Shown: positions 15,690-18,528 of the stretch, one piece after another
Numbering within the stretch: the first letter of the stretch is position 1
Layout of the letters: each line of letters starts with the position of its first letter
Assembly (NCBI GenBank): GCA_945907335.1
Contig: CAMDSU010000001.1
Location: forward strand, 1 to 33,874
Source: Bordetella parapertussis
Lineage (GTDB): Bacteria > Pseudomonadota > Gammaproteobacteria > Burkholderiales > Burkholderiaceae_C
Length of the DNA: 33,874 nt
Reading direction: 5' to 3'
Notes under the pieces: model-generated
Databases searched by the model: none
What the model was told of the DNA's origin: nothing
Seen by the model: only the letters and a program-made list of their open reading frames with translations
Program-made: the position numbers and the translations under genes

Positions 15690-17150
15690 ATGATTGCATA
15701 CGAACCCACCCTAGAACGCCTCTCGATCGCCCACAACCTGTTGCTCAAACCTTATGGTTTGGACGAGAGCCATTTGTCGCAGGCTTTATCAGCGATTCGT
15801 GCGCACCGCATCGATGACGCAGATTTGTATTTTCAATACACCCGTTCTGAGGGCTGGAGTCTGGAAGAAGGCATCGTCAAAACTGGATCATTCAGTATTG
15901 ACCAAGGGGTAGGTGTGCGAGCCGTGAGCGGAGAAAAAACTGCTTTCGCATATTCAGACGATATTTCTATGGCCTCGTTGATGGATGCGGCGCACACGGT
16001 GCGCAGCATTGCCGCCAGTGGAAAAAATGCCCAGACCAAAGTGCCAGCAAGAAAAATCGCTGGTTCGCGCAGCCTCTACCGCGATGACGATCCGATCGCC
16101 AGCTTAGACAGCACCGCCAAAGTGAATCTGCTCGAACGCTTGGAACAACAAGCACGTGCCAAAGACCCGCGCGTGGTGCAAGTCATGGCCGGCTTGGCCA
16201 GCGAATACGACGTGGTGCTGGTCGCTCGTGCCGATGGCACTTTGGCTGCCGATGTGCGCCCCTTGGTGCGTTTGTCATTGAGTGTGATCGTGGAAGAAAA
16301 AGGCCGCCGTGAAAGCGGTTCGGCCGGCGGCGGTGGCCGCTTCGGCTTGGCGCATTTCGACGAAGCTTGTTTAACCCGTTACGTGGACGAAGCCGTGGGT
16401 GCTGCCTTGACCAATTTGCAGGCGCAAGCCGCGCCTGCGGGCGAAATGACCGTGGTGCTCGGTTCTGGCTGGCCCGGGATTTTGTTGCACGAAGCGATTG
16501 GCCACGGTTTGGAAGGCGATTTCAACCGCAAGGGTTCGAGCGCATTCAGCGGCATGATCGGCCAACGTGTCGCTGCCAAAGGTGTCACCGTGCTCGACGA
16601 CGGCACGATTGCTGATAGACGCGGTTCACTCAATGTGGACGATGAAGGCAACGCCAGCCAGCGCAATGTGCTGATTGAAGACGGCATATTGAAAGCCTAT
16701 ATCCAAGACAGCATGAATGCGCGCTTGATGGGCGTGGCGCCCACCGGCAACGGCAGACGCGAAAGCTACGCCCACGTCCCTATGCCGCGCATGACCAATA
16801 CCTATATGTTGAGCGGTGACAAGCACCCAGAAGAAATCGTCGCCAGTATCAAAAAAGGTTTGTACGCCACCAATTTCGGCGGCGGCCAGGTGGACATCAC
16901 ATCAGGCAAGTTTGTGTTTTCCGCCAGCCAGGCCTATTGGGTGGAGAATGGAAAAATCCAATACCCGGTCAAAGGTGCGACCTTGGTTGGCAACGGCCCG
17001 GACGCACTGACCCGTGTGAGCATGATTGGCAACGACATGGCCTTAGACCCCGGTGTCGGCACTTGCGGCAAGGAAGGCCAAAGCGTACCGGTGGGAGTGG
17101 GTCAGCCCACGCTGCGTATCGACGGTTTGACCGTGGGCGGAACCGCTTAA
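15690..17150 (+). CDS. tldD: Metalloprotease TldD
   Basis: TldD pairs with TldE (PmbA) in a cytoplasmic zinc metalloprotease known from microcin B17 maturation, CcdA degradation and cleavage of unfolded peptides. The 486-residue length fits (E. coli 481). The zinc-binding HEAIGHGLEGDF motif is at residues 267-278, and the conserved end with TCGKEGQSVPVGVGQP carries the third-ligand cysteine region. The frame stays open upstream into the previous gene; ATG 15690 gives the length closest to the family, with ATG 15651 as alternative. tldE is not in the window, which is normal as it is often unlinked. The gene ends just before the aroG leader. Confidence 0.93.
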   Translation: MIAYEPTLERLSIAHNLLLKPYGLDESHLSQALSAIRAHRIDDADLYFQYTRSEGWSLEEGIVKTGSFSIDQGVGVRAVSGEKTAFAYSDDISMASLMDAAHTVRSIAASGKNAQTKVPARKIAGSRSLYRDDDPIASLDSTAKVNLLERLEQQARAKDPRVVQVMAGLASEYDVVLVARADGTLAADVRPLVRLSLSVIVEEKGRRESGSAGGGGRFGLAHFDEACLTRYVDEAVGAALTNLQAQAAPAGEMTVVLGSGWPGILLHEAIGHGLEGDFNRKGSSAFSGMIGQRVAAKGVTVLDDGTIADRRGSLNVDDEGNASQRNVLIEDGILKAYIQDSMNARLMGVAPTGNGRRESYAHVPMPRMTNTYMLSGDKHPEEIVASIKKGLYATNFGGGQVDITSGKFVFSASQAYWVENGKIQYPVKGATLVGNGPDALTRVSMIGNDMALDPGVGTCGKEGQSVPVGVGQPTLRIDGLTVGGTA

Positions 17151-17168: not shown

Positions 17169-17177
17169 TGCTACATT
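17169..17177 (+). promoter_or_regulatory. Possible extended -10 promoter of the aroG leader
   Basis: TGC followed by TACATT (17172-17177) matches an extended -10 element. The leader ATG at 17185 is eight bases after its end, so transcription could begin at or right beside that ATG. No -35 is visible at 16-18 bases, which extended -10 promoters can do without. It lies only about 20 bases after the tldD stop. Confidence 0.4.
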
Positions 17178-17184
17178 TCACGCC

Positions 17185-17253
17185 ATGAATTCAGCGCCTT
17201 TTCACTTTGCTTATTTTTACGTCTCACGCCCCACCGGCGGTCGAGAGGTCTGA
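17185..17253 (+). CDS. Phe/Tyr-rich leader peptide of aroG (22 aa)
   Basis: A short ORF encodes MNSAPFHFAYFYVSRPTGG then REV and a TGA stop. Between codons 6 and 12 it has three Phe codons (17200, 17206, 17215) and two Tyr codons (17212, 17218), three of them in a row. It lies directly before an attenuator and the DAHP synthase gene of aromatic amino acid synthesis. This is the arrangement of the enterobacterial pheA and pheST leaders: low charged tRNA-Phe or tRNA-Tyr would stall the ribosome at the aromatic codons. The codons Thr-Gly-Gly near the end encode the antiterminator arm. No ribosome binding site is seen before the ATG, so translation may be leaderless. The coding call is inference from composition and placement. 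Confidence 0.75.
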   Translation: MNSAPFHFAYFYVSRPTGGREV

Positions 17254-17309
17254 ACGCAACAACGCTCTGAACTTCCCAACCTACCGCCGGATCCCGGCGG
17301 TTTTTTTTT
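17234..17309 (+). promoter_or_regulatory. Transcription attenuator of aroG (antiterminator/terminator switch)
   Basis: Segment A, CCGGCGGT (17234-17241), lies in the tail of the leader ORF. Segment B, ACCGCCGG (17283-17290), is its perfect complement. Segment C, CCGGCGGT (17294-17301), is identical to A, so B can pair with either. B:C makes an 8-bp hairpin with a 3-base loop followed by a run of T to 17309, an intrinsic terminator. A:B is the antiterminator. A begins 14 bases after the last aromatic codon, so a ribosome stalled there leaves A free, while one at the leader stop (17251) covers it. aroG starts 50 bases beyond the T-run. Confidence 0.8.
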
Positions 17310-17359
17310 GTTAACGAATTTGTGTCTCATAAACAGTTGCAGCCTTCCAGGAGTCTTTC

Positions 17360-18478
17360 ATGAAATCCCATCCCAAAGATGCTTATGCACCGATCGATGA
17401 CCAAACCAGCCAGACCGACGACCAACGCATCAAGGACATCACCGTGTTGCCGCCACCCGAACATTTGATCCGCTTTTTTCCGATTGCCGGCACCGCAGTT
17501 GAAAAACTCATCGCTCAGACACGCCAGCGTATTGCCAAAATCATGAGCGGTAAAGATGACCGTTTGCTGGTGGTGATGGGGCCTTGCTCTATCCACGACC
17601 CGGCAGCTGCATTGGACTATGCGCGTCGCTTGCAAGTTGAGCGCGAAAAATACAAAGACACCTTAGAAATTGTCATGCGCGTGTATTTTGAAAAACCGCG
17701 CACCACGGTCGGCTGGAAAGGCCTGATCAATGACCCGTACCTGGACGAGAGTTTCCGCATTGACGAAGGCCTGCGCATTGCGCGCCAATTGCTGATTGAA
17801 ATCAACCGCACCGGTGTGCCAGCCGGCAGCGAGTTTCTGGATGTGATCTCACCCCAATACATCGGTGACCTGATCAGTTGGGGCGCCATCGGCGCACGCA
17901 CCACCGAAAGCCAAGTGCACCGCGAATTGGCCTCCGGTTTGTCTGCCCCTATCGGCTTTAAAAATGGCACCGATGGCAACATCAAAATCGCAACAGACGC
18001 GATACAAGCGGCGGCACGCGGGCACCACTTTTTATCTGTGCATAAAAACGGCCAGGTGGCAATTGTCCAAACCCAAGGCAATCCTGATTGCCACGTCATT
18101 TTGCGCGGCGGCAAAGCCCCTAACTATGACGCAGAAAGTGTGGCCTCCGCCTGCAAGGAATTGGAAGCAGCCAAGTTACCCGCCAGTTTGATGGTCGATT
18201 GCAGCCATGCCAACAGCAGCAAACAACACGAGCGCCAGTTGGTCGTGGCCAAAGACATAGCCGGCCAAATTGCGGCTGGTTCGCACCAAGTGTTCGGTGT
18301 CATGATCGAAAGCCATTTGCAGCCCGGCGCACAAAAATTCACGCCCGGCAAGGACAAAGTTGAGGGTTTGGTTTATGGCCAAAGCATCACCGATGCCTGC
18401 CTGTCTTGGGATGACTCATTGCAAGCATTGCAAGCGCTGGATGTTGGTATCAAGGCGCGTCGCAAAGCCAAAAAATAA
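17360..18478 (+). CDS. aroG: 3-deoxy-7-phosphoheptulonate synthase (DAHP synthase, class I)
   Basis: DAHP synthase condenses phosphoenolpyruvate and erythrose 4-phosphate, the entry step of the shikimate pathway in the cytoplasm. The 372-residue protein matches the AroG/F/H family closely: VVMGPCSIHDP with the metal-ligand cysteine, VYFEKPRTTVGWKGLINDP, GARTTESQVHRELASGLS, GFKNGTDGNIK, the metal-ligand histidine in DCSHANSSKQ, glutamate in MIESHL and aspartate in SITDACLSWDD. ATG 17360 has AGGAG (17348-17352) at good spacing. Expression is probably controlled by the Phe/Tyr leader attenuator just upstream. Which amino acid inhibits the enzyme allosterically cannot be stated; the leader suggests Phe and Tyr. 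Confidence 0.96.
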   Translation: MKSHPKDAYAPIDDQTSQTDDQRIKDITVLPPPEHLIRFFPIAGTAVEKLIAQTRQRIAKIMSGKDDRLLVVMGPCSIHDPAAALDYARRLQVEREKYKDTLEIVMRVYFEKPRTTVGWKGLINDPYLDESFRIDEGLRIARQLLIEINRTGVPAGSEFLDVISPQYIGDLISWGAIGARTTESQVHRELASGLSAPIGFKNGTDGNIKIATDAIQAAARGHHFLSVHKNGQVAIVQTQGNPDCHVILRGGKAPNYDAESVASACKELEAAKLPASLMVDCSHANSSKQHERQLVVAKDIAGQIAAGSHQVFGVMIESHLQPGAQKFTPGKDKVEGLVYGQSITDACLSWDDSLQALQALDVGIKARRKAKK

Positions 18479-18502: not shown

Positions 18503-18528
18503 CGGACTGCATGGCAGTCCGTTTTTTT
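18503..18528 (+). terminator. Intrinsic terminator after aroG (possibly bidirectional)
   Basis: CGGACTGC (18503-18510) and GCAGTCCG (18514-18521) form an 8-bp stem with a 3-base loop, followed by seven T on the + strand. On the - strand the hairpin is followed by four T, so it may also stop transcription of the convergent mpl. Confidence 0.88.

Follow-up and report, generated by a model that had tools for sequence, protein, structure and literature searches.

What controls the expression of aroG in the window, that is, the whole analyzed stretch of 33,874 nucleotides, in which this shikimate entry gene is preceded by a short ORF rich in aromatic codons and by a hairpin followed by a T-run? 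The preliminary description of the locus, which had placed the ORF, its five aromatic codons, three segments named A, B, and C, the T-run and the aroG ribosome binding site, was right at every coordinate checked, and its reading of the leader as an attenuator is supported by the codons, spacing, and alternative pairings in relatives. We consider it highly likely, from sequence comparison, that the element controls aroG by ribosome-mediated transcription attenuation, in the manner of the trp and phe leaders, and has the following parts:

17169..17177, + strand: extended -10 element TGcTACATT at a conserved position, with the predicted transcription start at or adjoining the leader ATG
17185..17253, + strand: leader ORF encoding MNSAPFHFAYFYVSRPTGGREV, without a Shine-Dalgarno sequence and predicted to be leaderless
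17200..17220, + strand: sensor codons Phe-His-Phe-Ala-Tyr-Phe-Tyr, with aromatic positions kept in relatives
17222..17230, + strand: tentative segment 1 (TCTC and CGCC), which may pair with GGCG/GAGA over A as a pause or protector hairpin (window fold, weak swap test)
17234..17241, + strand: segment A (segment 2), CCGGCGGT, putative antiterminator 5' arm (spacing, covariation, folds, swap test)
17243..17249, + strand: GAGAGGT, 3' portion of segment 2, tentatively pairing within the antiterminator or with segment 1 (folds, weak swap test)
17283..17290, + strand: segment B (segment 3), ACCGCCGG, putative partner of A in the antiterminator or of C in the terminator (terminator scan, covariation, folds)
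17294..17309, + strand: segment C (segment 4), CCGGCGGT, with the T-run; predicted terminator 3' arm and release site (terminator scan, covariation)
17360..18478, + strand: aroG, class I DAHP synthase (TIGR00034 aroFGH; profile score)

The leader ORF extends from the ATG at 17185 to the TGA at 17253 and comprises 22 codons and the stop, including Phe codons at 17200-17202, 17206-17208, and 17215-17217 and Tyr codons at 17212-17214 and 17218-17220. Segment A, with its first base at 17234, lies within the ORF and has the same letters as C (17294-17301), after which the T-run reaches 17309 and counts nine T if the last base of C is included. A terminator scan of the window recovered the B/C hairpin (8 pairs, loop of 3; chance expectation 0.5 sites). 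The aroG gene has a ribosome binding site, GGAG, at 17350-17353, and its product scores 534.7 bits against the TIGR00034 profile (cut-off 173.2). An ORF with codons for the end-product amino acids and a terminator between this ORF and the gene, both belonging to the definition of a leader-peptide attenuator, are present; an antiterminator that could not coexist with the terminator, and whose 5' arm lies just past the sensor, is found as structure and spacing, with few independent changes of A and B. Among dinucleotide shuffles of the 230 bases upstream of aroG, at least five aromatic codons in 12 together with a terminator arose in 5 out of 3000, and the combination of ORF, terminator, and A repeat arose in none of a second set of 3000. 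The RNA fold of 17169-17315 is stabler than that of most shuffles (z of -2.17; equaled by 3 out of 200).

Occurrence of the leader among aroG loci and genomes

The preliminary description had predicted that an ORF rich in aromatic codons, with compensatory changes in the pairing segments, would be conserved upstream of aroG; the alignment of relatives was run, and its outcome was positive. Loci were collected by an AroG protein scan of named genome contigs, from which the best 80 of 594 confirmed places were taken without regard to the leader; together with the window they make 81 loci, and the exclusion of L014, the contig of which ends before the upstream region, leaves 80 testable ones. The leader ORF and the terminator were found in 72 out of these 80 loci, 65 of them by script and seven, including the window, by a relaxed pattern and reading; these positives include L074 with an interrupted T-run and the deviant L044. 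A typical relative encodes the leader peptide MTSRIAFYFYFWFSVPGGREASA. The leader and terminator are absent from eight loci, namely four Polynucleobacter loci, two Cupriavidus loci, L075, and L077; in the genomes of both of these Cupriavidus and of L075, the leader precedes another aroG copy. In set 1, 69 out of 71 upstream regions carry at least five aromatic codons in 12 and a terminator, compared with none out of 355 shuffles and none out of 71 reverse strands, the 71 regions being loci already parsed as leaders by that same finder. For the comparisons below, 219 AroG loci were parsed, of which 17 were dropped (including L047, which has the leader), and the removal of nine duplicates from the remaining 202 gave 193 distinct leaders.

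The tldD gene of the window ends at 17150 on the same strand, 133 nt ahead of the hairpin, as would be expected if the hairpin were an ordinary tldD terminator and the short ORF a product of chance. However, a tldD-like tail was recognized by a simple motif upstream in only 62 out of 202 leader loci, so the leader goes with aroG; four Polynucleobacter loci have a tldD tail immediately 5' of aroG and yet no leader between the two genes; and relatives conserve the aromatic ORF as well as the A repeat and the -10 element. We therefore regard a tldD terminator as a very improbable explanation and retain the attenuator of aroG.

Several loci deserve separate mention. The Polynucleobacter-named records are divided, since the metagenome-assembled loci L037 and L042 possess the leader and the strain loci L048, L050, L053, and L056 lack it, which reflects either a lineage-specific loss or mislabeled assemblies. 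Two Cupriavidus genomes (L059/L085 and L060/L083) have at least two aroG copies each, with the leader before one of the two that were read. Locus L030, from a record named Solimonas sp. SE-A11, encodes an AroG 81% identical to that of the window and has the leader, which points to either horizontal transfer or contamination.

The breadth of the family was surveyed with two covariance models. The first one, built from 71 leaders, matched 112 out of 399 genomes in the order survey (E ≤ 0.001), and AroG was detected at E ≤ 1e-60 in 301 of the same 399 genomes. With six weak matches excluded, 105 out of 109 examined order-survey matches (L093-L201) are located upstream of an AroG homolog on the same strand. 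Conversely, 40 regions upstream of AroG that had no model match beside them were picked among the AroG matches listed, and one of them has the leader; a few belong to second copies, in genomes that have the leader at the other copy. One of these regions, L233, has six aromatic codons in 12 within a GTG/TTG-started ORF but lacks a terminator of this kind, and was counted as negative. The second model, built from 100 diverse leaders, matched 17 out of 370 genomes in the class survey (seven places adjoin aroG and ten weak ones do not) and 55 out of 299 genomes in the phylum survey, where all 20 further places examined adjoin aroG. When the orders of two phylum-survey genomes were searched, 17 out of 150 and 25 out of 121 genomes matched, and all seven places read adjoin aroG. 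Matches away from aroG, which numbered 4 out of 109 in the order survey and 10 out of 17 in the class survey, were either weak or confined to the terminator and were treated as chance. The listed genomes, which are a part of each draw, are not shared among the draws of the three orders, and the element is thus apparently present in no fewer than three orders; that the other two are Pseudomonas-like and Xanthomonas-like is our guess. A search of plasmid records with the leader DNA gave no match, and the aromatic leader was not seen at eight named plasmid or chromid aroG copies (Cupriavidus, 1; Vibrio, 2; Aeromonas, 1; Salinivibrio, 1; Caballeronia, 2; Burkholderia arboris, 1), several of which may be second copies.

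Sensor codons, pairing segments, and predicted promoter

Phe codons are present in all 193 distinct leaders, Tyr codons in 184, Trp codons in 126, and codons for all three amino acids in 124. The initially proposed Phe/Tyr sensor fits the leader of the window, which has Phe and Tyr codons only, but not most of its relatives, which also read Trp; in set 1, Trp is encoded by 59 out of 71 leaders, and the window is among the 12 without it. Over the seven positions up to and including the last aromatic codon, every one is aromatic in at least 134 out of 187 leaders; the leader peptide is variable outside the aromatic run. At aromatic-residue sites, 906 out of 1777 differences exchange one aromatic residue for another, and hence what tends to be conserved is the class of the residue, not its exact identity. 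An argument from synonymous rates failed, as the changes (1903 at third, 1807 at second, and 936 at first codon positions) are not mainly synonymous, largely owing to interchange between Phe and Tyr. The ancestral sensor may have covered all three aromatic amino acids. An extended version of this proposal seems to us evenly balanced between true and false: in an old leader family of at least three orders, one leaderless mini-mRNA would read Phe, Tyr, and Trp together and convey the total aromatic supply to the shikimate entry enzyme, replacing promoter repression of the TyrR type, and the lineage of the window would have narrowed this sensor to Phe and Tyr. At the last aromatic position (17218-17220 in the window), Phe codons are TTC in 83 out of 140 cases, while elsewhere in the leaders they are TTT in 465 out of 666, a preference that suggests an RNA-level constraint at this position.

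All three codon phases are represented among the A segments (68, 11, and 108 out of 187 leaders), and the peptide therefore does not account for the conservation of A. The exact core GGCGG is found in 171 out of 187 leaders. The start of A follows the last aromatic codon by 8-12 nt in 155 out of 187 leaders; the spacing to the A core in the window is 15 nt and lies outside this common range. The usual ribosome footprint extends about 10 nt past the A-site codon, and by this measure a ribosome stalled at the sensor would end just short of A. The stop codon lies past the A core by a median of 19 nt in relatives and by 13 nt in the window, so in many relatives part of A would stay uncovered by a ribosome that has reached the stop. 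The terminator and the alternative pairing are compatible with any attenuator class, including a ligand-binding riboswitch or a T-box. The conserved feature, however, is a run of aromatic codons near an A segment used in three codon phases and not a compact aptamer, and Rfam yielded no match in the window at the gathering threshold and five matches in eight relatives at E values up to 1, all sub-threshold. We thus hold a riboswitch or T-box to be most unlikely and consider the pairing segments further as parts of a leader-peptide attenuator.

The terminator shows covariation: both sides have changed in 54 cells, compared with an average of 18.4 in shuffles, none of which reaches 54 out of 500 made, although 42 of these 54 doubly changed cells fall at one pair and the alignment was fitted to that structure. 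The pairing of A with B was not significant on the MAFFT alignment (50 out of 500 shuffles reached the percent paired and 53 out of 500 the covariation score), in part due to misalignment of those leaders in which A has a different codon phase, and was re-examined with anchored tables, the AroG tree, and swap tests. At the outer position, just beside the core, A/B/C read C/G/C in 61 out of 191 leaders and T/A/T in 57. On the AroG tree, B and C change jointly in six out of seven independent pairs, while for A and B there are four independent pairs, of which about three change the same way and none the opposite way, which is not significant. The outer base of A varies in 16 independent pairs, in 13 of which C is unchanged, and it is unable to pair with B in 41 out of 171 leaders with the GGCGG core. 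In the swap test, exchanging B for a swapped one weakened the pairing with A in 140 out of 187 leaders, compared with 70 out of 187 for control arms. When the RNA is folded with C omitted, B finds its partner within the leader ORF in 187 out of 193 cases, and 180 out of 193 folds are better than the average of their own shuffles. The full-length RNA fold of the window prefers the terminator, implying that antitermination must be kinetic, with timing deciding. These results agree with the initial proposal that A and C compete for B; a possible hairpin of segment 1 over A (17222-17230 with 17236-17246), by which A would be sequestered unless a ribosome stalls, had been overlooked and is weakly supported, its own pairing being better in 107 out of 187 leaders against 70 out of 187 for control arms. 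The own pairing of GAGAGGT was likewise better in 115 out of 187 leaders, a weak result.

The extended -10 element of the window is located seven bases 5' of the leader ATG. A generic scan of the window detected no sigma-70 promoter and a -35 box was not seen, so the predicted promoter rests on the extended -10 element and its conservation. The sequence TANNNT ends 6-8 nt 5' of the leader start 111 times over 193 leaders and at most five times at any other distance, and TGnTANNNT ends 5-9 nt 5' of the leader start in 93 out of 187 leaders, compared with 68 out of 9350 random positions. The leader start was taken to be ATG in 188 out of 193 leaders. A Shine-Dalgarno-like sequence precedes 10 out of 193 leader starts versus 161 out of 186 aroG starts. 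The conserved -10 position and the usual absence of a Shine-Dalgarno sequence back the earlier suggestion that the leader ORF is read from a leaderless transcript, and the leader RNA is probably leaderless; transcription starting at the ATG is a prediction that fits about half of the leaders, and the pattern is silent on the rest.

Predicted mechanism and relation to known attenuators

From the conserved codons, spacing, alternative pairings, terminator, promoter position, and aroG linkage that emerge from the comparison, we infer how leaderless initiation, stalling, termination, and read-through could respond to amino acid supply. RNA polymerase would start at or adjoining the leader ATG, and a ribosome would load on the 5' end of the leaderless RNA. 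With ample charged Phe- and Tyr-tRNA, the ribosome would pass over A to the stop codon, B and C would pair, and transcription would end near 17309. When charged Phe- or Tyr-tRNA is scarce, the ribosome would stall at 17200-17220 and, with the usual footprint, cover the RNA to about 17230, leaving A free to pair with B before C is made, and the polymerase would read on into aroG. If no ribosome has loaded, the hairpin over A may let the terminator form. The switch thus very probably turns aroG on when Phe or Tyr runs short, as judged from sequence.

Other systems are already known that share this class of mechanism, and even the same target enzyme. In E. coli, the pheL-pheA attenuator combines a Phe-rich leader with competing antiterminator and terminator structures, as in the element described here; it differs in the regulated gene and in the Shine-Dalgarno sequence that the pheL leader possesses. 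The corresponding Rfam family Phe_leader (RF01859) was not matched in the window, and its only match in eight relatives had 28.5 bits versus the 55-bit threshold. Pfam and NCBIfam contained no family matching six leaders.

The preliminary description had regarded attenuation of DAHP synthase as a different strategy, for which the aroR-aroF system of Corynebacterium glutamicum is a precedent: a leader peptide with Phe-Tyr-Phe precedes the DAHP synthase gene, and transcription is reported to increase under Phe limitation (PMC4046766; PMC11802643, citing Neshat 2014). As far as it can be likened by description, this system shares the aromatic leader peptide 5' of a DAHP synthase gene; it belongs to an Actinobacterium, and the passages available mention no Trp codon, which is common in the relatives studied here. 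In Acholeplasma, the uORFC-13-1 motif is described as a predicted Phe-coding upstream ORF and terminator before the DAHP synthase gene aroF, again similar to our leader; unlike it, the motif has a ribosome binding site, and its 24 representatives come from one genus and environmental sequences (PMC8632094, as far as the consulted part goes). For two Vibrio species, attenuators have been predicted before a DAHP synthase-tyrA operon (PMC1173090, Table 7); predicted attenuation is common to both cases, while that entry belongs to a list of predictions and, in the part consulted, concerns another paralog. Two Vibrio aroG copies that we read have no such leader.

A leaderless leader peptide in a proteobacterium is known from Sinorhizobium meliloti trpL-trpE(G), the attenuator RNA of which begins with the leader ATG (PMC7298713); according to the consulted part, that system differs in sensing Trp and in controlling trpE(G). 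Like S. meliloti rnTrpL, as described in the consulted part of the same report, the terminated RNA predicted here would constitute a small leaderless mRNA, and the leader peptide or this short RNA could, besides cis attenuation, also act in trans like peTrpL/rnTrpL. Given that the peptide is variable outside the aromatic run, we find such an additional role unlikely, and cis attenuation of aroG remains the preferred reading.

For the bacteria considered here, a full-text search of open-licence papers found no description of this element, and the main text of a premature-terminator survey (PMC2965389), so far as it was covered, makes no mention of aroG or DAHP synthase. No description was found of the family, its leaderless start, its breadth, or its three-amino-acid codon set, and by comparison of its members the element is a new and widespread family of a known kind of predicted attenuator. 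For large groups of environmental bacteria, it constitutes a concrete candidate regulator of entry into the shikimate pathway. A leaderless start, if true, could allow the ribosome to load as soon as the RNA emerges, and one leader reading three amino acids, if true, would be a compact sensor of total aromatics. The covariance models from this analysis can be used for annotation, since Rfam, Pfam, and NCBIfam lack this family.

At the other end of the gene, a second inverted repeat followed by a T-run is present at 18503-18528, 3' of aroG and ahead of the converging mpl gene, and is probably aroG's own terminator.
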